NCBI GenBank assembly: GCA_001797275.1
Contig: MGOY01000012.1
Location: forward strand, 1-35,459
Reading direction: 5' to 3'
DNA length: 35,459 bases
Origin: Clostridiales bacterium GWF2_38_85
Lineage (GTDB): Bacteria > Bacillota > Clostridia > Oscillospirales > CAG-382
Of the stretch, positions 1-16,523 are shown piece by piece. The first letter of the stretch is position 1; every line of letters begins with the position of its first letter. The notes below the pieces were generated by a model. The model had not been told where the DNA came from. It was given only the letters and a program-made list of their open reading frames with translations, and did not search any database. A program made the position numbers and the translations under genes.

Positions 1-44
1 GAATGGAGAGCAGGTATTTAAAATTAATTAATCTTTAATAATCG

Positions 45-73
45 TTGACTATATTATGGGATTGTGATATTAT
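45..73 (+). promoter_or_regulatory. Candidate sigma-A promoter for the small-gene array
   Basis: TTGACT at 45-50 and TATTAT at 68-73 are separated by 17 bases. It lies about 70 bases upstream of the first gene of the array and is the only strong promoter-like pair I saw at the left end, so it could serve the whole array. Bases 1-44 show nothing recognisable. Inferred from sequence only. Confidence 0.5.
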
Positions 74-144
74 TTTAAATATATTGAGGAAAAATCAATT
101 TAGCATTATTTATAATAGTGGACAGAAAAAGGAGAGATACAACC

Positions 145-657
145 ATGGAAAAGAAAACAGAATTTACTATCGAAGAATTCAAATTAGAGCAACCAATTTA
201 TGTGGTAGGTCGTACAGTTAGAGTAACACATGGTACACCTGAATGTTTTCCCGCAATAAGTGCGTTAAAGGCTAATTTTCTTGCTAATGATGTCCCGTCG
301 ATAATAACCAACATACAAAAACCGGTTATTAGATTTGGTATTTGCAAAGATCATCACGTTCCAAGTGAAGGTCTTATAGAATTCACTTATATGATAGGCG
401 TTCAGACCACAGGACAGACGTTTGAGAATTTAATTGATGATATGGAACTACATATTATACCGGAAGGTGATTATGTCCGTATTAAAGTATCAGCTCCCGA
501 TGCTGATACAGCTATCGGAACTGCATATGTAAATTTAAGTAATTGGTTCAATGAATCAACTGAATGGGCAGGCGCTGGCGAATTTGAAGTTTATCCAAAT
601 GAATCTACAGACGCTGAAATGGAATTTTGGAATGGACTTAAAAGAAAGAATTTTTGA
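145..657 (+). CDS. GyrI-like / effector-binding-domain protein
   Basis: 170-aa protein resembling the GyrI-like small-molecule-binding (AraC effector-binding, COG3708-type) family: a stand-alone ligand-binding domain without a DNA-binding domain. Recognition rests on the overall pattern, including the stretches VRVTHGTPECFPAISALK, LIEFTYMIGV and the C-terminal FEVYPNES. The ATG at 145 is preceded by AGGAGAG at 130-136, so I prefer it to the in-frame upstream GTG at 118. It is the first gene of a same-strand run of small, unrelated genes, and a repeat element follows its stop. Such proteins bind drugs or metabolites; the ligand cannot be told from the sequence. Confidence 0.75.
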   Translation: MEKKTEFTIEEFKLEQPIYVVGRTVRVTHGTPECFPAISALKANFLANDVPSIITNIQKPVIRFGICKDHHVPSEGLIEFTYMIGVQTTGQTFENLIDDMELHIIPEGDYVRIKVSAPDADTAIGTAYVNLSNWFNESTEWAGAGEFEVYPNESTDAEMEFWNGLKRKNF

Positions 658-658
658 T

Positions 659-708
659 GCTCAATATAAGCATAATCCGAAGTCAAGCGTTTTTATTATG
701 TAATATTA
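659..708 (+). repeat. Array repeat element, copy A
   Basis: Begins one base after the stop of the GyrI-like gene. It contains ATAAGCATAATCCGAAG (666-682) followed by TCAAGCGTTTTTATTATGTAA. GCTC at 659-662 partly pairs with the AGC of AAGCG. The 3' half matches copy G (AGCGTTTT, ATTATGTAA). See the findings for the cassette hypothesis. Confidence 0.8.
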
Positions 709-766
709 AATAAAACAATATTGCAAATTAAATCGACTCACTATTTATAATTGGAGGTAGAACATA

Positions 767-1156
767 ATGTCAAAGTACCCGCAATTCACTATGTCATTCA
801 GCATAGGACCTACGAACAAAGATCGAATTGATGCTTTTGAAATATATCATAAAGCTTTCAAAGCAAAGAAACTTTCAGAAAGCACACCATCCAACAGTGA
901 TGATATCCATATTATGATGAACATATACGGACTTGATATTTTAATTGGTCCGGGTAAAGTAACAGGGACTGGTTTTGAAGGTGCTTTATCCTGTGAAATT
1001 CGTTTTGACGAAGAGGACGATTTTCATCAAGCTTATGATGGAATAAGCAAAGATGCTCAAAGTCATTCTATTGAAGGTCCATATCCATGGGCAACGCTGC
1101 TAGGTCTTGTGGTTGATAAGTTCGGTATTGGATGGGCTCTTTATTATAACGAATAA
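767..1156 (+). CDS. VOC-superfamily (PhnB/glyoxalase-like) protein
   Basis: 129-aa protein of the vicinal-oxygen-chelate fold, PhnB/DNA-binding-uncharacterised subtype. The typical middle (DIHIMMNIYGLDILIGPG) and the C-terminal signature (WATLLGLVVDKFGIGWALYY) are present; the ending around F-G-W-x-L is characteristic of PhnB-like proteins. The start is supported by GGAGG at 752-756. Members of this family act as dimers in resistance or metal-dependent isomerisation, but many, including this subtype, have no assigned substrate. It is the second unit of the array and shares neither operon logic nor pathway with its neighbours. Confidence 0.85.
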   Translation: MSKYPQFTMSFSIGPTNKDRIDAFEIYHKAFKAKKLSESTPSNSDDIHIMMNIYGLDILIGPGKVTGTGFEGALSCEIRFDEEDDFHQAYDGISKDAQSHSIEGPYPWATLLGLVVDKFGIGWALYYNE

Positions 1157-1163
1157 TTATATC

Positions 1164-1229
1164 CTCGAAAATAAGCATAATCCGAAGCCGAGAGTTTTTT
1201 AGAATAGAAAGTTCAATCATCATTTAATT
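1164..1229 (+). repeat. Array repeat element, copy B (longest form)
   Basis: Follows the VOC gene by 7 bases. CTCG (1164-1167) and CGAG (1188-1191 region) flank the ATAAGCATAATCCGAAG core (1171-1187) and are followed by a T6 run. The 3' part AGAATAGAAAGTTCAATC is shared with copy E. With the T-run it could also work as an intrinsic terminator. Confidence 0.85.
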
Positions 1230-1279
1230 TGTATAGCACACAATATATCATGATGTATCATGAAAGTGGGCAAGAGAAA

Positions 1280-1837
1280 ATGAGCGAAATTAAATTGATT
1301 AAGCCATCTGCTGAGTATGCAGCGAAAATTGCTGAGTACCGGGACGAATTTATTACTTATAATGATTATTTTACTGTTTGCGACGTTAATAGAATACCGG
1401 GTGCAGAACGCATTTTAGAGTTTGATCGTGCGATTGATTGGATTGAAAATTGTCGGTTGTGCGAACATGCCGAAACAAATCCATATGAGGATTGCCCTAT
1501 TGCGACGCAATATATAGCGGTTCGTAAGAGTGATGACAGGATTGTTGGAATGATACATTTGCGGCATGAGCTTAGTAATGAAGAATTACGCAATTTTGAC
1601 GGTAATATAGGTTATTCAGTCCGTCCGAGCGAGCGCCTGAAAGGTTACGCAAAGGAACTGTTGAGGTTATGTCTTGAAAAAGCAAGAGAATACCGCCTTG
1701 AAAAGGTGTTGCTTTGCTGCGTTGACACAAACTTAGGTAGCCGCAAGGCTATTCTTGCAAATGGTGGCGAATATGAATGCACAAATTACGGCGAGGAATC
1801 TCGCTTGCACGTGGAATTGTATTGGATTTTAATTTGA
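1280..1837 (+). CDS. GNAT-family N-acetyltransferase
   Basis: 185-aa GCN5-related N-acetyltransferase. The acetyl-CoA-binding motif A is seen as GYSVRPSERLKGYAKELL (R-x-x-G-x-A type), followed by a helix with LCLEKAREY and the motif-B region VDTNLGSRKAILANGGEYE, typical of the RimJ/YjcK-like group. The start at 1280 (MSEIKL) is preferred because homologous GNATs begin near here; an in-frame ATG at 1250 is an alternative and neither has a strong RBS. Third unit of the array. The acceptor substrate is unknown. The 160 bases after it lack the array repeat. Confidence 0.9.
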   Translation: MSEIKLIKPSAEYAAKIAEYRDEFITYNDYFTVCDVNRIPGAERILEFDRAIDWIENCRLCEHAETNPYEDCPIATQYIAVRKSDDRIVGMIHLRHELSNEELRNFDGNIGYSVRPSERLKGYAKELLRLCLEKAREYRLEKVLLCCVDTNLGSRKAILANGGEYECTNYGEESRLHVELYWILI

Positions 1838-1981
1838 AACCTCAAGCTGCAAGCATGTATGACTTTTCTATAAGTGATTTTTCTAAGGAAGAGTATCGAA
1901 TTTAGAACGTTAGGCGTTATTAACATACGAGTATAATCAAGAGAAAAAAAGAAAGCCAACAAAATTATAGGAAGTGTTTCT

Positions 1982-2267
1982 ATGAACATACTTAGAATTG
2001 GAAAACAATTTTACCCCAGGTATCCGTTTTTATTTTCTTTATGATAATCTTATAAATCACCCAAAAGGTTGCTTTGACGGTTATCATTCAATAAAGATTA
2101 AAGATGAATTGATCCTGTCAAATTTTTTGTATGCTTGTGTAATTACAAAAAAATATAAATGCGAGCTTGAATTTCTTATTCCAACCGATGTTAGTAAAAA
2201 AGTAGTTTATCTTTCAACGGAAAATTTGATTATGATGGATTGGGCTGATAAGCATATAATTATTTAA
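1982..2267 (+). CDS. Small hypothetical protein, start disrupted or TTG-initiated
   Basis: I do not recognise the family. The body is an 89-aa frame starting at a TTG at 1998 (ENNFTPGIRFYFLYDN...). An AGGAAG RBS at 1970-1975 precedes an ATG at 1982 in another frame, which runs into a stop after about 20 codons. Either the gene has lost a base near codons 4-6 or it uses the TTG without a good RBS. I lean to a recent frameshift. The C-terminal codons contain GATAAGCATATAAT, close to the array repeat core, and a full repeat follows the stop. Confidence 0.5.
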
Positions 2268-2311
2268 ACGCATTATAAGCATAATTTGATATTTAATCAT
2301 CAAAACATTTA
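2268..2311 (+). repeat. Array repeat element, copy D (short form)
   Basis: Starts at the stop codon: AACGC, then ATAAGCATAAT at 2275-2285, then an abbreviated 3' half (TTTAATCATCAAAACATTTA) equivalent to the GTTCAATCATCAT end of copy B with the middle missing. Confidence 0.75.
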
Positions 2312-2326
2312 TTAAGTGAGGTAACG

Positions 2327-2641
2327 ATGTTAGATAAAAGCATTCCATACATGAATATTATTATGAAATTACAGAGCAAACTAATTTCGTCACTTTCTGG
2401 CCCAGTTTTACCAAATGGGTATACATTCAGACTTTATAATGATGGTGACGAAATTCATTGGGCGAGAATTGAAACATCAGTTTTAGAATTTGAATCTGAA
2501 AATGATGCTTGCGATTATTTTACAAAAAAATTCATTCCTCATATTGATGAATTAAAGTCACGTTGTGTTTTTGTAATTAATCAAGAAGGATTACCTATTG
2601 CCAACAGTCGACTTCTTTCATTTTCCACAAAAAGATGGTGA
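2327..2641 (+). pseudogene. Truncated GNAT-like gene (5' portion)
   Basis: 104-aa frame with a good RBS (GTGAGGT at 2315-2321). Residues 1 to about 92 look like the N-terminal half of a GNAT acetyltransferase (LPNGYTFRLYNDGDEIHWARIE... FVINQEGLPIAN). The frame then changes character (SRLLSFSTKRW) and ends before any acetyl-CoA motif. The DNA after about 2605 in a second frame reads DFFHFPQKDGDGISIIYMKEGHL, which looks like the tail of something else. The simplest reading is a deletion that removed the 3' half of this gene and its repeat element. Unlikely to be active. Confidence 0.65.
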
Positions 2642-2678
2642 CGGAATTTCGATTATTTATATGAAAGAAGGTCATTTA

Positions 2679-3128
2679 ATGAGTATAATATTACTGAAAA
2701 AAGCTGAAGATTTAATCAATAAATGCACCGCACATACACGAGAATCGGGGCTTTCATTTGATTGGGTTATGACGTTGACAGATGAGTTGGGTTATCCGTC
2801 TGCTTCAATGATTACAGCTTCAAGAGCAGATGGAACAAATTGGATTGCTTTCTGTACGGGAATTGGCGCAAATAAACCAAACCGTATAAGAAAAGACCCG
2901 CGCGCTTGCATATATTTATTTGAAAACAAAAGCTTTTCGGGTATATCTTTAATAGGAAAAATCGAAATAATTACCGATTTAGAGGTTAAACGGCAAATGT
3001 GGTACGATGAATTGGCAGAACATTTTAATGGCTCGGAGGACGATGGGTTATGCGTTTTAATGTTTAAGCCAGAACGCTATAATATCTTTATAGATTATCA
3101 AACAATTCAAGGTGAATTTGTTAAGTGA
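2679..3128 (+). CDS. Pyridoxamine 5'-phosphate oxidase-like flavoprotein
   Basis: 149-aa split-barrel FMN-binding protein of the general-stress-protein-26 / PNPOx-like type. Visible features are GYPSASMITASRADG (strand pair), WIAFCTGIGANKPNRIRKDPRACIYLFE (the usual K-x-x-x-I-x-x-x-P region) and the closing FKPERYNIFIDY. The start at 2679 has AAGAAGG at 2664-2670; the longer upstream frame is discarded because it runs through the relic before it. Sixth unit of the array. Family members bind FMN or F420 and reduce or oxidise small substrates; which is unknown here. Confidence 0.85.
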   Translation: MSIILLKKAEDLINKCTAHTRESGLSFDWVMTLTDELGYPSASMITASRADGTNWIAFCTGIGANKPNRIRKDPRACIYLFENKSFSGISLIGKIEIITDLEVKRQMWYDELAEHFNGSEDDGLCVLMFKPERYNIFIDYQTIQGEFVK

Positions 3129-3164
3129 ACTATAAAAGAATTGATTATTTAGGTGGTGTTGAAG

Positions 3165-3674
3165 ATGAAAGACAAATATCTTTATTTGCTTGCTCAATTT
3201 GATAAAGAAACTCAGGAAATACTCACTGGATATTACGATATTCTCCAGCAAAATGGCTTTGTAGGAAATCAAACAAAAAACATACCTTACCATTTTACTT
3301 TGGGTAAAAAAGATATTGATTGTGAAAAACAACTGATAGACGACCTCGATAAAATATGCGCAAACACAGCTTGTATTGACATCCATCTTAGTCATATCGG
3401 ATTGTTTGGTTTAGGTGTATTATTTATTGCTCCAGACATGAATTTTGAATTACTTAAATTTCAGCAAAAATTCTTTCCCCATTGTGGAAATGGAGCCTAC
3501 AATTGGACTGCACACGCTACTTTGCTGTTAGATGAGCCAGAAAAAATTTTGAAAGCGCTTCCGATTATAGCTAAAAACTTTAAACCTTTTAAAACACGCA
3601 TCGAGAGTATCGGATTATATGAATTTTTTCCTATGCGTTTTATTAAAGAATGTATACTCAACAAAACAGTATAA
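3165..3674 (+). CDS. 2H phosphoesterase (LigT / 2'-5' RNA ligase-like)
   Basis: 169-aa protein with both catalytic HxT motifs of the 2H phosphoesterase superfamily: H43-F-T45 in YHFTLGK and H117-A-T119 in WTAHATLLL. Spacing and length fit the LigT/YjcG-like single-domain group, which cleaves or forms 2',5' or cyclic phosphodiester bonds in RNA or nucleotides. The ATG at 3165 follows AGGTGGTG (3151-3158), so the short upstream in-frame GTG/TTG codons are not used. The stop codon is part of repeat copy E. No RNA-processing partner lies next to it. Confidence 0.88.
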   Translation: MKDKYLYLLAQFDKETQEILTGYYDILQQNGFVGNQTKNIPYHFTLGKKDIDCEKQLIDDLDKICANTACIDIHLSHIGLFGLGVLFIAPDMNFELLKFQQKFFPHCGNGAYNWTAHATLLLDEPEKILKALPIIAKNFKPFKTRIESIGLYEFFPMRFIKECILNKTV

Positions 3675-3730
3675 GCATAATCCGAAATCGAGTGTTTTTT
3701 AAAATAGAAAGTTCAAGCGTCATATTAATT
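3669..3730 (+). repeat. Array repeat element, copy E (stop codon inside)
   Basis: GTATAAGCATAATCCGAA includes the TAA stop of the phosphoesterase. AAAACA (3663-3668) pairs with TGTTTT (3693-3698) around the core. The 3' half AAAATAGAAAGTTCAAGCG matches copy B. Confidence 0.85.
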
Positions 3731-3755
3731 ATATTTTTAGAGGAAGGTATTTATT

Positions 3756-4244
3756 ATGGCAAAAGTGATATTGATATGTGGGAAAATTTGTAGCGGCAAA
3801 ACCCGATATGCCAAATCTTTGTCAAAAATGAACTCTGCTGTTATACTTTCATCAGATGAAATTACCCTTGTTTTGTTTGGTTCAAATGGTGGACAAGAAC
3901 ATGGCTGTGTGGTTGATAAGTTGCAAAATTATCTTTATCAAAAATCATTAGAAATTGTTGATGTTGGAATCAATGTTATTCTGGATTGGGGCTTTTGGAC
4001 ACAAAAAGAAAGGCAGAAAGCAATTACATTTTTTGCAAAACATAATATTAATTTTGAGTGGCATTATATTGATTCGTCAGATGAGGTGTTGCGCGTAAAT
4101 CTCAATGAACGAAATCGTGAAATTGAAGAAGGTCGAACTCTATCCTATTATTTTCCTGACGAACTTATTAGTCGGTTTTGGGATATGTTTGAAGTTCCTT
4201 CAAAGGATGAAATGGACATTTGGGTTGATAATCGAATAGTATAA
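3756..4244 (+). CDS. P-loop kinase / ATP-binding protein (AAA_33-like)
   Basis: 162-aa nucleotide kinase-like ATPase. The Walker A is G9-K-I-C-S-G-K-T16. A SSDEITLVLFG stretch follows, then a hydrophobic strand ending in aspartate (INVILDWGFW) and the lid region RVNLNERNREIEEGR with its arginines. This pattern belongs to the small AAA_33/zeta-like kinase group that phosphorylates small molecules or sugars. RBS GAGGAAGG at 3741-3748. No antitoxin-like partner gene is adjacent, so a toxin role is not favoured. The stop lies inside repeat copy F. Confidence 0.85.
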   Translation: MAKVILICGKICSGKTRYAKSLSKMNSAVILSSDEITLVLFGSNGGQEHGCVVDKLQNYLYQKSLEIVDVGINVILDWGFWTQKERQKAITFFAKHNINFEWHYIDSSDEVLRVNLNERNREIEEGRTLSYYFPDELISRFWDMFEVPSKDEMDIWVDNRIV

Positions 4245-4275
4245 GCATAATTGGAAATTCAATCGTCACATTTAT
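4238..4275 (+). repeat. Array repeat element, copy F (internally deleted form)
   Basis: AGTATAAGCATAAT includes the stop of the kinase gene. It is then joined directly to GAAATTCAATCGTCACATTTA. Compared with copies B and E the middle ~23 bases are missing. Confidence 0.78.
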
Positions 4276-4317
4276 TATATTAATGCTCAGTAAAATCATT
4301 TTGAAAAGAGATTTATT

Positions 4318-5151
4318 ATGGCAGAATTTTTAGAAGCAGTCATTACTGAACTGACTCAAAATCACTCTGAATCTACTTTACATCAGTTATTATTCAAGAC
4401 AAGCGAAAAACTAATCAGAGGAGATGAGTTTTCAACTGAAGAAAAGAAATATATAACAGATAGATTCTTGAACAATATAAGCGATAAAAACGATATAGAA
4501 CGTTTCCATAAAATAATAGAAATTCCAAAAGACAGAGTAAATATGTATCCATTATTTTTTGTTCCGTCGGACAGCACCTATAAACGTATTACAGTTACAG
4601 GAGCTATGCCCAAAACACATATTTTTTCTGCAAATTCATATGAGTTGGAGATTCTCCGCATATTGACAATGTGGCGATCAGATGATGAGAGAGTACAAGA
4701 TATGATCATCAAGACTATCGACAGGCTGAAAACGATGTGTTTAGATAAGAAAAGCGATAAGGATGAAATATATGAAGTTTCAATTGCAGTCATACGTTTT
4801 ATAGCATTAGTTTTTCCTGATGAAAAACAATGGATTGGCAAATTATTTACTGGAGTACGCCAAGGAGGAAAAAGAACTGGTGCTGTTATGTATTATTATT
4901 TCTTAATGTTATCCCAACTCCATTTGCCAATGTCGGATGAAGAAATTCGGAACAATCAATGGCATTTTGAAAAAATGACAAAAATCGGAACTCACAGGTC
5001 TTACAAATTGAAATACGATAACATATTCGAGCCGATACGTACACATATTGCCCGTAATTGTTTATTACACTTTCCTGAATTTGAATATTTAAGAAAAATG
5101 AAATCATATATTGGAGCGGATGGAAATAAACATTTTGATGATGCCTACTAG
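4318..5151 (+). CDS. Hypothetical protein, 277 aa
   Basis: I do not recognise the family. The protein is soluble (no signal peptide or membrane segment), charged and mostly helical in character. An N-terminal helical part (EFLEAVITELTQNHSESTLHQLL) is followed by a central segment with EILRILTMWRSDDERVQDMIIKTIDRLK and a C-terminal part with HFPEFEYLRKMK. GAAAAGAGA at 4301-4309 precedes the ATG. At 277 aa it is the longest gene in the array. The stop is the first codon of repeat copy G. It could be a phage- or defence-related helical protein, but nothing in the sequence proves that. Confidence 0.7.
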   Translation: MAEFLEAVITELTQNHSESTLHQLLFKTSEKLIRGDEFSTEEKKYITDRFLNNISDKNDIERFHKIIEIPKDRVNMYPLFFVPSDSTYKRITVTGAMPKTHIFSANSYELEILRILTMWRSDDERVQDMIIKTIDRLKTMCLDKKSDKDEIYEVSIAVIRFIALVFPDEKQWIGKLFTGVRQGGKRTGAVMYYYFLMLSQLHLPMSDEEIRNNQWHFEKMTKIGTHRSYKLKYDNIFEPIRTHIARNCLLHFPEFEYLRKMKSYIGADGNKHFDDAY

Positions 5152-5188
5152 TATAAATCGTAAAGAGCGTTTTCATTATGTAACACTA
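5150..5188 (+). repeat. Array repeat element, copy G (3' half conserved)
   Basis: AGTATAA overlaps the stop of the 277-aa gene. The core is degraded (ATCGTAAAG), but GAGCGTTTTCATTATGTAACA matches the 3' half of copy A. This copy carries the clearest GAGCGTT arm. Confidence 0.65.
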
Positions 5189-5220
5189 GATTATTTAAAT
5201 AATATGGGGAGATGAAATAA

Positions 5221-5673
5221 ATGGCTGATAACAGATTTTTATCAGTGAGTGGGATTGTCGTAAAAGATAATAAAGTTTTGCTTGTAAGACAAGCGTATGG
5301 TGCAGCTAAAGGTTTACTAATAATTCCTGGTGGGTATTTAACAGAAGGCGAAATGCCGAATGTTGCACTTGAACGAGAAATATTAGAAGAAACTGGAATC
5401 ATAGCATCTACTGATAACCTAATAGCTATTCGTTTTTCAAAAAAGGATTGGTGGGCGATTTTTACCGTTAATTATGTTACCGGAGAGCCAATATCTGATG
5501 GTAACGAAAATAGCGAAGCGTTATTTCTTAATATAGATGACGCATTATTAAGAAATGATTTAACTTATACCACAAAAGAAATATTGAAAAATTACATATC
5601 AAAAAATAAGTTTACTCTGTCGGATTTTTGCCCATTCGGAATTGAACCGACACATTATCAACTGTATATATAA
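5221..5673 (+). CDS. NUDIX hydrolase
   Basis: 150-aa NUDIX pyrophosphohydrolase with a complete Nudix box at residues 38-60: G38, E44, R52-E53, E56-E57, G59 fit the GX5EX7REUXEEXGU rule. The N-terminal part FLSVSGIVVKDNKVLLVRQ is the usual first strand pair. GGGGAG at 5206-5211 supports the start. It hydrolyses a nucleoside diphosphate linked to an unknown group; it resembles general housecleaning members more than ADP-ribose-specific ones. Last unit of the array. Confidence 0.93.
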   Translation: MADNRFLSVSGIVVKDNKVLLVRQAYGAAKGLLIIPGGYLTEGEMPNVALEREILEETGIIASTDNLIAIRFSKKDWWAIFTVNYVTGEPISDGNENSEALFLNIDDALLRNDLTYTTKEILKNYISKNKFTLSDFCPFGIEPTHYQLYI

Positions 5674-5727
5674 CGCTCACTGATAAGCGTAATACGAAGC
5701 TAAGAGTGCTTAAGCAACGCTCTTTTT
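5672..5727 (+). repeat. Array repeat element, copy H, with terminator-like end
   Basis: Begins with the stop codon: AACGCTC, then GATAAGCGTAATACGAAG (core with two changes), then AAGAGTG, which pairs with CGCTCT (G-U allowed) before a T5 run at 5721-5726. This is the terminal copy of the array and looks like a transcription terminator. Confidence 0.7.
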
Positions 5728-5749
5728 CAAACATAAAAAAATATAATCA

Positions 5750-5930
5750 CATTGAGTCGTTGAGTCGTGCGAATTGCCAAAATGAGAGGTGATTTGTAAG
5801 GCAGCCGGTTCTTTTGTTATTGATACAGAATTAGGTAGTAGTGGACTGGAATTTGGTTTTTCCTGACTTGGCTCTACTACAGCAAAAGTAAATTATGCAG
5901 TAATGATTTTTATTGTATATAATAGACATT
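5750..5930 (+). pseudogene. Phage tape-measure gene relic, copy 1
   Basis: Reads AGSFVIDTELGSSGLEFGFS, stop, LGSTTAK from 5804, matching the N-terminus of phage tail tape-measure proteins (VIDTEL...SGLESGLSGLGS). The native RBS GAGAGGTGAT is retained at 5784-5793, but the start ATG has become AAG. It ends in unrelated sequence after about 5890. The 5751-5888 segment is a degenerate direct repeat of 9293-9430, so the two copies bracket the ABC transporter genes. Confidence 0.7.
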
Positions 5931-6006
5931 ATTAAAAATCAACCTTTGCATATTTATATAATGATAATATAGCAAGTGTGATTTATAAATGATATAATAT
6001 CTTTAT

Positions 6007-6041: not shown

Positions 6042-6107
6042 ACTCATATGCGTGAAAGTATTTATAGATTTTTGCTCTAAAATATTATTTTGGTAGGAGA
6101 TACAAAT

Positions 6108-6866
6108 ATGGGGAATGCAATTTTAAAAACAGATCAACTGTGTAAAAGCTTTAAAAGCGGTACACAGGAGCAACAGGTATTAAAAAACATGGATATAGAA
6201 ATTTATGAAAGTGACTTTACCGTCATAATGGGTTCGTCCGGTGCGGGTAAATCCACTTTGCTATACGCTCTGTCCGGAATGGACAGACCTTCAAGCGGTT
6301 CTATTAAGTTTTTCGATGCGGAAATTGCAGGTCTGAATAATGACAAGCTGGCGATCTTTCGAAGACAGAATTGCGGTTTCGTGTTTCAACAAATGTTTTT
6401 GTTAGATAACATGAGTATTTTAGACAATATATTAGCAAGCGGATTGCTCACCGGAAGTGATAAAAAGCAAATAATTGCGAATGCGAAAGACTTGTTTACA
6501 AAGGTTGGATTAACAGAAACCATCTGGAGAAAATTTCCGACACAGCTTTCGGGCGGTGAAAATCAGCGCGCAGCAATCGTTCGGGCGTTAATTAACAAAC
6601 CGAAGGTTGTTTTTGCGGATGAACCGACCGGCGCATTAAATTCAGCGTCCGGAAAAGCGGTGCTGGATGTTTTAACCGATGTCAATGATAACGGTCAAAG
6701 CATTATCATGGTAACGCATGATCTGCATTCCGCAAGAAGAGGAAATCGGATTTTATACATAAAAGACGGTGTAATCAGCGGTGAATGCAATTTAGGTAAA
6801 TATGTTAGCGGTGATACTACACGCCACGAAAAACTTCGTACTTTCCTTTCCGAAATGGGGTGGTAG
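6108..6866 (+). CDS. ABC transporter ATP-binding protein (MacB/LolD/BceA type)
   Basis: 252-aa ATPase: Walker A G42-SSGAGKS, Q-loop FVFQQMFLLDNM, signature LSGGENQRA, Walker B VVFADEPTGALNS and switch MVTHD. The EPTGAL ending is typical of the MacB/LolD/FtsE subfamily that works with FtsX-like permeases. The ATG at 6108 sits 9 bases after TAGGAGA (6094-6100); an upstream in-frame TTG overlaps the RBS and is discarded. The permease gene starts one base after its stop, so the two are translationally coupled. Likely role: peptide-antibiotic resistance or export of a peptide or lipid, inferred from family. Confidence 0.93.
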   Translation: MGNAILKTDQLCKSFKSGTQEQQVLKNMDIEIYESDFTVIMGSSGAGKSTLLYALSGMDRPSSGSIKFFDAEIAGLNNDKLAIFRRQNCGFVFQQMFLLDNMSILDNILASGLLTGSDKKQIIANAKDLFTKVGLTETIWRKFPTQLSGGENQRAAIVRALINKPKVVFADEPTGALNSASGKAVLDVLTDVNDNGQSIIMVTHDLHSARRGNRILYIKDGVISGECNLGKYVSGDTTRHEKLRTFLSEMGW

Positions 6867-6867
6867 C

Positions 6868-9252
6868 GTGAACAAATTGTGGTTGCATGCGCGAGCAAAT
6901 ATTCGCAAAACCAAATCAGTATCTGCAACACTTGTCTGTATGTTTATTATTGCGGCATTTCTGCTCAACGCCGGACTTTTAGTTGTCGTTAATTACGGTA
7001 ACTTTTTCAACACTCTGAAAGAAGAACTTTTACCGGCGGATGTCTATTATATGATACCGAATGCGCTTTACACAGATGAAGTGAAAGCATATTTTAATGA
7101 AAATGAGCATATTGAGAAAATCCAGAAGAACGACATGATACTGCTCGACTCAAAAATAACCTCTAAGGGAAAAGAACAGTCGTTTAATGTATTATTCAAC
7201 AATATGGATGAACAGCGAGAAATATCTAAATGGGAATTTGTCGGAGAACATTTAGAAGCTGAGGATATGTCGGTTTATGTTCCAGACGTTTTTAAAGCGG
7301 TAAGCGGGTATCAGCTAAATGATAAAATCGAGCTGAAATTTACCGATGAAAAAACAAACACGGGAAAAACATTATTATTTACGGTAAAAGGTTATACAGA
7401 GGATATCTATTTCAGTTCTGTCGACACTGGGTTTATGAGCTTTTATTTGACATCAGATACCTATCAAAAGGTAGCGGATATCATAAATAATCCCGATAAT
7501 AATATGCACGTAGTGTTTACGAACATGGATAATACGGATAGTATTAAGACAGTTGAAAGCGGAATTCGTGATATTCTGGACTTGAATTCCTCTTCTCTGA
7601 TATCAGGGGATGTATCGTCTCTTTTTGTGGTAATCGATCTTGAAATAGTCGAAATGGCAAGATGTATGATGGCCAGCATGGTTTCAGTTATGATGGTTGT
7701 TTTTTCCATGATCATTGTAATTGTCTGTTTATTGGTAGTACATTTCAGGATTGTAAACAGCATAGAAGAAGATGTTATGAAAATCGGCTCCTTAAAAGCA
7801 GTCGGTTATACAAGCCGGCAGATTATACTTTCTGCTATTTTACAGTTTGGGTTAATCGCAGGTGTCGGCAGCCTCATCGGAATTGCACTTTCTTATCCGG
7901 CATTACCTTCAGTATCTGCTGTTTTCGAACAGCAATCCGGATTAAGATGGGAGCAGGGTTTTGATGGTGTTATCAGTTCAATTGCCCTCCTTATTTTATT
8001 GTCGATTGTTGTTTTGGTTGCATTAACCGCCGCTCGTCGCCTGAGTAAGCTTAACCCCATTAATGCTCTTCGCGGCGAAACCACAGCGCATAAATATAAG
8101 AAAAACCACTTGCCGCTGGAAAAGGCAAAAGGTCAGCTTTTGGTTGTATTAGCTTTTAAGTCGGTTCTGCAAAGCATGAAACAAAACATCATGATCATAA
8201 TCATCCTTACCGCAGTTACATTTTCCGGAGTTTTCGGTGTGATTATGTTTTATAATACAACCATCGATACAAAAGCTTTTGCAGAAGTTCCTGGTATGGA
8301 GATTTGCAATGCAATCGCTGTATTGAATCCCGAAAAAGATCAAACGGAAGCAGTAGAAACCATTAAAAACATGGATAACGTTCGTAAAGTACAATATCTG
8401 GATCAGGTAAAAATCAAGATAGATGGCAGTGAAGCTTCTACATTTATAATGGATGATTATTCAACCAAAGAATCCATGTTGGTGTATGAAGGTCGTTACC
8501 CCGAAAATAAAAATGAAATAACTATTGCCGGAATTTCGGCGGAGAGGCTGCATAAAACAATCAATGATACGGTTTCAGTAAGTTTTGGCGACCATGAAGA
8601 AGTATTCAAAATCGTTGGATTGTCCAATGGTTCTTCGATGGGAGGAATCAATTCTTCAATATTAACTGAAGACTTCAAACGGCTTAATCCGGATTTTAAA
8701 CAGCAGTCTTTGAATATTTATCTTGAAAAAGGAACAGATGCTGCTGCGTTCATTGAAAAATTAAAGGATCAGTTCGATAAGGAATTATTGCTCGGTGCAG
8801 TAAATTTTGATGAGGAAATGGCTGAAGGTATGGCGTCCTATCAAAATATAGTTGCAGCAATGGGACTTGTAATGCTGATAATTACACTGCTTGTGGTTAC
8901 CCTGGTTTTATATTTTGTCATCAGTTCATCTGTTCTTCGTAAAAGACGAGAATTGGGAATTCAAAAGGCAATTGGATTTACTACATTACAGCTGATGAAC
9001 CAACATGCAATCAGTTTTACAGTACCTATTATTCTTGGCGCAGTTATTGGCAGCCTTTTAGGGTCGTTTTATACCAACTCGTTGATGTCTGTCACTATGA
9101 AGAGTATGGGGGTAATGAAAGCCGGTTTTATCGTAGATCCATTCTGGATGATTGCGTTTTGTATAATCACTATATTATTTTCTTACCTATTATCTCTTTT
9201 AATTACCTGGCGTATTAGAAAAATATCTGCATATACGCTTGTTACGGAATAA
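6868..9252 (+). CDS. ABC transporter permease, FtsX-domain
   Basis: 794-aa permease starting at GTG 6868, one base after the ATPase stop, with GGGGTGG as RBS inside the ATPase end. Architecture: an N-terminal membrane segment (about residues 15-38), a large extracellular domain, three membrane segments with an FtsX-type motif (EEDVMKIGSLKAVGYTSRQI), a further segment, a second extracellular domain and a last FtsX trio with RRELGIQKAIGFTTLQLM. This duplicated-FtsX layout is typical of Firmicute antimicrobial-peptide transporters and MacB-like exporters. The frame is intact throughout, in contrast with the decayed phage pieces on both sides. Confidence 0.93.
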   Translation: MNKLWLHARANIRKTKSVSATLVCMFIIAAFLLNAGLLVVVNYGNFFNTLKEELLPADVYYMIPNALYTDEVKAYFNENEHIEKIQKNDMILLDSKITSKGKEQSFNVLFNNMDEQREISKWEFVGEHLEAEDMSVYVPDVFKAVSGYQLNDKIELKFTDEKTNTGKTLLFTVKGYTEDIYFSSVDTGFMSFYLTSDTYQKVADIINNPDNNMHVVFTNMDNTDSIKTVESGIRDILDLNSSSLISGDVSSLFVVIDLEIVEMARCMMASMVSVMMVVFSMIIVIVCLLVVHFRIVNSIEEDVMKIGSLKAVGYTSRQIILSAILQFGLIAGVGSLIGIALSYPALPSVSAVFEQQSGLRWEQGFDGVISSIALLILLSIVVLVALTAARRLSKLNPINALRGETTAHKYKKNHLPLEKAKGQLLVVLAFKSVLQSMKQNIMIIIILTAVTFSGVFGVIMFYNTTIDTKAFAEVPGMEICNAIAVLNPEKDQTEAVETIKNMDNVRKVQYLDQVKIKIDGSEASTFIMDDYSTKESMLVYEGRYPENKNEITIAGISAERLHKTINDTVSVSFGDHEEVFKIVGLSNGSSMGGINSSILTEDFKRLNPDFKQQSLNIYLEKGTDAAAFIEKLKDQFDKELLLGAVNFDEEMAEGMASYQNIVAAMGLVMLIITLLVVTLVLYFVISSSVLRKRRELGIQKAIGFTTLQLMNQHAISFTVPIILGAVIGSLLGSFYTNSLMSVTMKSMGVMKAGFIVDPFWMIAFCIITILFSYLLSLLITWRIRKISAYTLVTE

Positions 9253-9292: not shown

Positions 9293-9753
9293 ATGAGCCG
9301 TTGAGCCGTGTTAGTCACCAAAAATGAGAGGTGATTTGTATGGAAGACGGCTCAGTTGTTATTTAAACCGAATTAGTTAGTAGTGGACTGGAATCGGGTT
9401 TATCAGGTCTTGGTTCTACTGCAGCAAAAGGAATAACAGCTTCTTTAGTCATCGTAACATCCGCATTATCATTTGCTACTGTTGCGATAATGAAATATGA
9501 CATTGGATTTGAAACTGCGATGGCAAAGGTATCAACACTTGCGGATACCAATCAAAAATCAATTTCCGAATTATCATCCGAAGCTCTTACTCTGTCAATT
9601 ACTACAGGCACATCCGCATCAGAACTCGGTGAATCCTTGTATGAGGTTCTTTCGGCAGGTATTTCTACTGTAGATTTAACTGCTTTTCTTATTGAAGCGA
9701 ATAAACTGGCAGTCGTTGGTTTTACAGATGTAGTAAGCTCAGTCTATGTATAG
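9293..9753 (+). pseudogene. Phage tape-measure gene relic, copy 2
   Basis: From ATG 9340 (RBS GAGAGGTGAT at 9326-9335) the frame reads MEDGSVVI, a stop (TAA 9364-9366), then continues in the same frame as SGLESGLSGLGSTAAKGI... ALSFATVAIMKYDIGFETAMAKVSTLADTN and on to 9753. The part SEALTLSITTGTSASELGESLYEVLSAGI is characteristic of tail tape-measure proteins. Only about 140 of the usual 600-1000+ residues remain. The first ~140 bp repeat copy 1 at 5751-5888. Confidence 0.82.
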
Positions 9754-9944
9754 CGTGTTCACCCAACAAACGGGAACAAAGCTACCGGGTGCATTTTGTA
9801 TCAAACTCGTGTTCTTCGCCAAAAGGGTTGTATAAAAAAGATACAGCCACAAAAAACCAAGTTCCAATTTCATAGATGCAAATGCCACTTTTTAGCTTTG
9901 CGGATAGATTTGAACTCGCGCACAATAAAATTCCGGCAAAATCA

Positions 9945-16256: not shown

Positions 16257-16523
16257 ACATAATAAATCATTATATCTTTTTAATCTATCTTTTGTTATAA
16301 TAAATATATCAATCGTATGACTAAGCAATTGAGATATTAAACTAAAAAATGAATTGTTATTTTATTTATTTGAAAAAAGTCAAAGAGTAAAGGCATTTTT
16401 CAAATTGCTAAGGTAATTCATTTATTAGTTTTATATAGGCAAACAAACTTGGTGGCGGAGGTTATATGCTATTGATTTGCTTTGATGCCAATAAGTAGAT
16501 TTTCTTCTTGACTGAATATTTTA

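Follow-up and report, generated by a model that had tools for sequence, protein, structure and literature searches.

The stretch of DNA analysed here, called the window, comprises the first 35,459 bases of contig MGOY01000012.1 (C12) of Clostridiales bacterium GWF2_38_85, the genome of which spans 2.83 Mb in 47 contigs and is 96% complete. From about 118 to 5673 the window is occupied by ten small open reading frames (ORFs), all on the plus strand; six of them received Pfam names and four (129, 89, 104, and 277 aa) had no match. The ORFs form an array in which a short repeated element, hereafter the tag, is present at seven sites per ten ORFs, mostly with a site 3' of each ORF. Small genes in one direction with a site behind most of them are also a feature of integron arrays and of clusters of attC sites lacking integron-integrases (CALINs). 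This cargo array lies beside the remnant of a phage tape-measure gene, a setting that was beyond the view of the initial annotation of this DNA, and its coordinates are collected in Table 1.

The tag is built around a core, ATAAGCATAATnnGAA, which was found in six near-exact copies between 666 and 5698, all on the plus strand and all within the array. When ATAAGCATAATNNGAA was searched with at most one mismatch, six matches were obtained in the window against a mean of 0.07 and a maximum of 1 in 100 dinucleotide shuffles. With three mismatches allowed, the 16 window matches were not above chance (shuffle mean 11.5), and we therefore placed weight on the near-exact copies only. In total, 12 copies with a core were compared, namely A, B, D, E, F, and H of the window, S1 and S2 of locus L119 and S3 and S4 of locus L120 (both on contig C13), one copy on contig C46, and one in the sister species G001. 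A model search of the genome returned 28 matches, of which 11 were the copies used and 10 (E 1.5 to 9) were left out; seven more were dropped after reading, none of them lying directly 3' of a stop codon. Taken singly, the copies S1, S2, S4, and C46 have weak scores (E 0.03 to 0.57), and their location behind a gene was part of the reason for retaining them. Pair identity among the 12 copies, aligned without gaps, was 0.80 in the 16-nt core and 0.30-0.39 outside it, with a background of 0.30, a contrast that is partly built in because the copies were found by their core. The proposal that the core is conserved as sequence was thus borne out.

Beyond the core, sites B and E have 64 nt in common at 84% identity and sites A and G have 26 nt in common at 85%, which agrees with the two 3' halves described in the initial annotation. 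Sites D and F have 29 nt in common at 86%, and in them hardly anything separates the left core from the right motif. The latter, TT[CT]AATC[AG]TCA at up to one mismatch, was found on the plus strand of the window only at B, D, E, and F, and on the minus strand at two more places; in the A, S1, S2, S3, C46, and G001 copies it was matched no better than in shuffles. The middle is indeed absent from D and F, as had been noted, but this need not be a loss, because the sister species (L356), L119 (S2), and L120 (S4) also have short forms; derivation may have run towards the long form. The repeat is thus real and narrow in distribution. It is an intergenic tag that measures some 40 to 70 nt, more in A, and consists of a left core that is conserved, a middle that differs in length, and a right half common to a subset of copies.

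The position of the tag is regular as well. For each of the 12 copies, a stop codon ends between 16 nt before and 4 nt past the start of the tag (offset -16 to +4), and the frame closed by this stop has at least 93 codons; among random positions, 1.8-3.7% satisfy this when frames of 90 codons or more are counted. Seven copies, the six of the window and S3, had been identified by sequence before their position was looked at, and 7/7 obey the rule. In four of the 12 copies (E, F, S3, and C46), the TAA within ATAAGC is the actual stop codon. The genes preceding the tags are unrelated and differ between copies, which leaves two routes, the joining of the tag to many genes or an exchange of genes around it. 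Recombination within or adjacent to the element is implied by the halves that copies beside unrelated genes have in common, as the initial annotation had suggested from the exchanged halves; no fixed breakpoint was seen within it, though the copies are too few to exclude one.

Table 1. Features of the window around the cargo array; sites A to H are copies of the tag
Feature	Position	Strand	Basis and remarks
3' codons of an ORF truncated at the contig start	1..21	+	Hand reading EWRAGI, then stop
Promoter-like TTGACT-17-TATTAT with TG, upstream of first cargo gene	45..73	+	Weak; whole region 24 such matches vs 31.5 in shuffles
Cargo ORF, Cass2 effector-binding family	145..657	+	PF14526
Site A, long middle	658..755, core 666-681	+	Repeat comparison, model search, pattern
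Cargo ORF, 129 aa	767..1156	+	No Pfam match
Site B, long form	1157..1240, core 1171-1186	+	Repeat comparison, model search, pattern, 3' motif
Cargo ORF, GNAT acetyltransferase family	1280..1837	+	Pfam; no tag recognised 3' of the ORF
Cargo ORF, 89 aa	1998..2267	+	No Pfam match
Site D, short form	2265..2312, core 2275-2290	+	Repeat comparison, model search, pattern, 3' motif
Cargo ORF, 104 aa	2327..2641	+	No Pfam match; PNPOx unit starts within the end of this ORF
PNPOx unit (ORF 2679-3128)	2602..3126	+	Pfam, PNPOx-type; 92% copy at C13:47462-47987 (L119)
Cargo ORF, 2'-5' RNA ligase-like	3153..3674	+	Pfam, barely above cut-off
Site E, long form	3668..3740, core 3671-3686	+	Own TAA is stop codon of preceding ORF
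Cargo ORF, AAA_33 kinase-like	3756..4244	+	Pfam
Site F, short form	4238..4285, core 4241-4256	+	Own TAA is stop codon of preceding ORF
Cargo ORF, 277 aa	4318..5151	+	No Pfam match; DNA relative in G108
Site G, decayed seventh copy	5152..5191	+	Right half common with A; core unrecognised by model
Cargo ORF, NUDIX hydrolase family	5221..5673	+	Pfam
Site H	5671..5700, core 5683-5698	+	Repeat comparison, model search, pattern
Terminator-like hairpin (7 bp, 9-nt loop), then T residues	5702..5729	+	Fold; unflagged by terminator scan with loop limit 8
Fragment repeated at 9321-9433 (83%), there leading into tape-measure-like frame	5779..5891	+	Repeat comparison
Tape-measure protein remnant	9321..9753	+	phrog_14441 E 3.3e-16 (9370-9750); PF10145 30.1 bits, below cut-off 33.2 (9490-9753)

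The tag recurs in other gene clusters of the same genome. At L119 (C13, 47 kb), the PNPOx unit of the window is present again in a different neighbourhood, and this copy carries a short-form site after its stop codon, where none was recognised at the window copy; the identity begins inside the preceding ORF of the window and not at a tag. The second cluster, L120 (C13, 81 kb), is a prophage in the order phrog_88 major tail gene, phrog_2115 tail gene, four cargo ORFs (a MerR protein with Cass2, 386 aa, GNAT, and 179 aa) with the two sites S3 and S4, a terminator-like hairpin, and a phrog_58 tape-measure gene. In the A+T-rich DNA behind S4, a 14-bp perfect palindrome was also observed at about 8780-8830 of L120 (minus strand). 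A Cass2 domain, from a family that takes its name from integron cassettes, is encoded by one gene in each of the three clusters (window 145-657, L120 10027-11046, L119 6374-7216). In the sister species G001, prophage L356 has phrog_2115, one APH-family cargo gene, a tag, a terminator-type hairpin, and a tape-measure gene, the hairpin being judged by eye and unflagged by the terminator scan. The tag therefore has the same place, between phrog_2115 and the tape-measure gene, in two species; the N-terminus of the G001 tape-measure protein is, by eye, strongly like that of L120. The APH-family gene (L356 7051-8052) has an in-frame stop codon. The copy on C46 stands in yet another context, within 2.3 kb between ORFs of 163 and 436 aa that adjoin each other in the sister species. 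This insert consists of an IS1595-family transposase gene, a hydrolase gene, and the tag, and is bounded by inverted ends that resemble each other and by a 10-nt direct repeat, TTAATAAATA.

Considering the tail setting of L120 and L356, where cargo lies between phage structural genes, and the tape-measure remnant that alone is seen in the window, we tentatively read the stretch as the cargo ('moron') array of a decayed prophage just upstream of its tape-measure gene, in which the tag has multiplied together with the cargo and may give homology for exchange. The codons at the contig start read EWRAGI before the stop and resemble the PGGI and PSGI ends of the frames directly before the cargo in L120 and L356, a likeness that is only suggestive. 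Tape-measure relatives of L120 include gut phages assigned to Oscillospirales, with one under the candidate order Heliusvirales. Of 46 tape-measure loci listed from IMG/VR, many of them close relatives of each other, 38 lacked any such extra ORF and had a tail ORF whose end lay about 200 nt ahead of the tape-measure start, while the other eight departed from this plain layout and several carried extra ORFs at the junction. Different extra ORFs upstream of the tape-measure start were observed in different phages (L269, L272, L279, L280, L294, L312, and L346), and the hairpin that closes the L269 block strongly resembles the ones in L120 and L356. Around the window remnant itself, the two copies of the 113-nt tape-measure start fragment flank a two-gene ABC-transporter-like unit (6090-9252, named by eye from motifs) and look as if two cargo-plus-tape-measure junctions were joined. 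Just 3' of the remnant, a 67-nt stretch (9755-9821) is 88% identical to L119 4296-4362, near the end of that cargo cluster.

Under the decayed-prophage reading, the tag would be copied together with cargo units. Because the ends of the units are nearly alike in sequence, the tags carried by co-resident prophages or by incoming phages could act as short homology, and a crossover within the tag would join a gene and its left half to another right half and the next gene. The outcome would be hybrid sites and one-way arrays of unrelated genes, and the hybrid halves (A/G and B/E) are compatible with crossovers inside the tag. We infer homologous or annealing-type recombination as the putative engine, and likewise the direction of change. 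Phage annealing recombinases work on short diverged homology, and for Red-beta a minimal pairing length of 23-27 bp is quoted (PMC3945230).

Several observations weigh against this reading. By eye, no two window sites are perfectly identical over more than 17 nt (A and B), which is below the length quoted for Red-beta. RecT was found neither in this genome nor in G001, other recombinase families not having been searched, and no enzyme and no moving event was caught in the analysis. The edge of the tag at the stop codon fits a cassette-type reaction better; plain homologous exchange would not call for one so sharp. Moreover, no clear phage structural gene was found in L119, where the best tail hit is a 321-aa serine hydrolase-like ORF, the window tape-measure remnant showed no match to the tape-measure proteins of G001 or L120 within the sensitivity of the comparison, and the upstream tail gene of the window is guessed from seven codons. 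Finally, the tag had 0 matches in 80 tape-measure-related IMG/VR loci.

To examine the arms AACGCTC and GAGCGTT, which the initial annotation had taken as complementary, we compared folding and pairing with shuffles. Ten copies folded singly as RNA gave z values of -1.25 to +1.66, at the level of shuffles. The left and right halves of six copies did not pair above shuffled right halves, and swapped partners were equally good. In the copies having both arms (A, B, E, and H), the mean longest paired stretch was 5.25 and that of swapped arms 5.0, with 189/1000 shuffles as good. Covariation of the arms as a hairpin is therefore unsupported, whereas the core does stand above its flanks. Nothing supports a conserved hairpin, although its absence is not proved with so few copies. 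The C46 copy folds best (-32 kcal/mol as RNA), while as DNA 12/200 shuffles do equally well; its hairpin, at first attC-like, turned out to be the tag facing the right inverted repeat of the IS1595-type insert. The integron integrase model TIGR02249 gave nine matches in the genome, none above the cut-off of 265 (best 95.5 bits), and matches below the cut-off were also present in 14/14 control genomes. No RYYYAAC and GTTRRRY pair 40-150 nt apart was found in window 1-5760 on either strand, where shuffles average 0.7. The element thus fails every attC feature tested, in agreement with the earlier view that it is unlike attC, and membership of the integrons was rejected.

The tag has a narrow range. 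Among 394 genomes of the order searched with a strict filter, eight had a match at E <=0.01, and only the present genome and G001 were convincing. Matches in other genomes at L349, L351, and L355 were dropped as no ORF ends nearby, and those at L350 (about 55 nt after a 254-codon frame) and L352 (22 nt after an 85-codon frame) were judged unconvincing. The match at L354 was left unplaced relative to ORFs, those in G025 and G036 were left out, and that in G015 was read and judged to be chance. Of eight further weak matches in G001, L363 ends an 80-codon frame and the other seven end none. In the phage collection, no DNA relatives of window 1-6000 were found, and IMG/VR held no relatives of the 277-aa ORF or of the window tape-measure remnant. 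The pattern TATAAGCATAATYNGAA matched 102 IMG/VR loci once each, and in ten of these an ORF of at least 60 codons ended between 60 nt before and 8 nt after the pattern start; as none lay in a tagged array, the matches were read as chance. The closest named relative of the kinase-like ORF is from Ruminococcus sp. UBA946 (75% identity); of 344 loci with kinase relatives, 80 named ones were kept, and no tag was seen in the 26 surroundings judged by eye. Elsewhere in the genome, a dispersed repeat of about 105 nt was observed at 90% identity on three contigs (window 16334-16441, L121 2804-2910, and L024 9972-10073), and a tyrosine recombinase-like ORF on C2 (L023 11601-12338) contains the C-terminal active-site region twice, with two PF00589 matches.

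The place of the tag just 3' of stop codons, the runs of T that follow the core in A, B, and E, and the conservation of sequence and not of structure could also be expected of a regulatory or transcription-ending element selected behind each cargo gene and playing no role in movement. We consider this unlikely, since the scan showed no terminator-like stem at the sites, no fold exceeded shuffles, and the four Rfam matches were weak, all far under their gathering scores and none at a core; besides, the short forms have no T run and a few array genes have no tag. A strict cassette system, integron-like but not an integron, in which the tag is the site of a putative dedicated recombinase that excises and inserts single gene-plus-tag units, is improbable as well. 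It would account for the cassette anatomy, that is, unrelated small genes in one direction with one tag 3' of the stop and the stop codon at times within it, as well as for the cassette-typical gene content such as Cass2 in three clusters and for the PNPOx unit in two places. It is opposed by the lack of an integron integrase above cut-off, of a conserved fold, and of the core motif pair in the array, and by the 12 phage-integrase family matches of the genome all lying on contigs other than C12, C13, and C46; further, the copied PNPOx unit starts inside another ORF and not at a tag. The bolder form of this idea, a non-integron cassette system of Gram-positive gut phages and their hosts, with a sequence-conserved non-folding tag, a putative recombinase moving single units, and the tail/tape-measure junction as the collecting site, is in our view decidedly doubtful.

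An origin of the tags from degenerate ends of insertion sequences, or of small non-autonomous elements with passenger genes, we regard as very unlikely. The pairing of the C46 tag with the right inverted repeat of its insert speaks for such an origin, but the transposase of C46 is single-copy in the genome, neither inverted ends nor target duplications could be recognised around the window sites, and the other copies do not fold like that of C46, the fold of which shuffled DNA can match. Taken all together, the cargo array of a decayed prophage remains the reading we tentatively prefer. As a recombination site, the tag would represent a cassette system outside integrons, and as a homology tract only, a clean natural case of trade in prophage cargo genes. 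In either case, such cargo can be searched for in this bacterial group by means of the tag, with the tail/tape-measure junction as a defined place to look.

Among known systems, phage morons are cargo genes at insertion hot spots of the tail region. The present clusters are alike in having extra genes without a role in virion assembly between the tail and tape-measure genes, in gene direction and followed by a terminator-like hairpin (L120, L356, and L269), and unlike in having up to ten genes in tandem with a tag common to many. IS1595-family elements with passenger genes are comparable to the setting of the C46 copy, which lies inside such an insert 3' of a hydrolase gene; however, transposase, inverted ends, and target duplication were seen at C46 only, and neither a transposase nor matching ends were recognised at the window array. 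A likeness to pdif or Xer-type sites is seen in TTATGTAA of A and G, and ATTATGTAA at window 688-703 (A) and 5168-5183 (G) resembles a XerD half-site, but only two copies have it. The literature searches brought up phage CALINs (PMC9892861), and within the titles and abstract openings that those searches listed, no such tag was described. Integron arrays and phage CALINs are similar as one-way arrays of small genes with a repeated site after each and no integrase, in phage genomes, whereas the tag described here has no attC core motif, no integrase above cut-off, and no conserved hairpin, and its left half is conserved as sequence.

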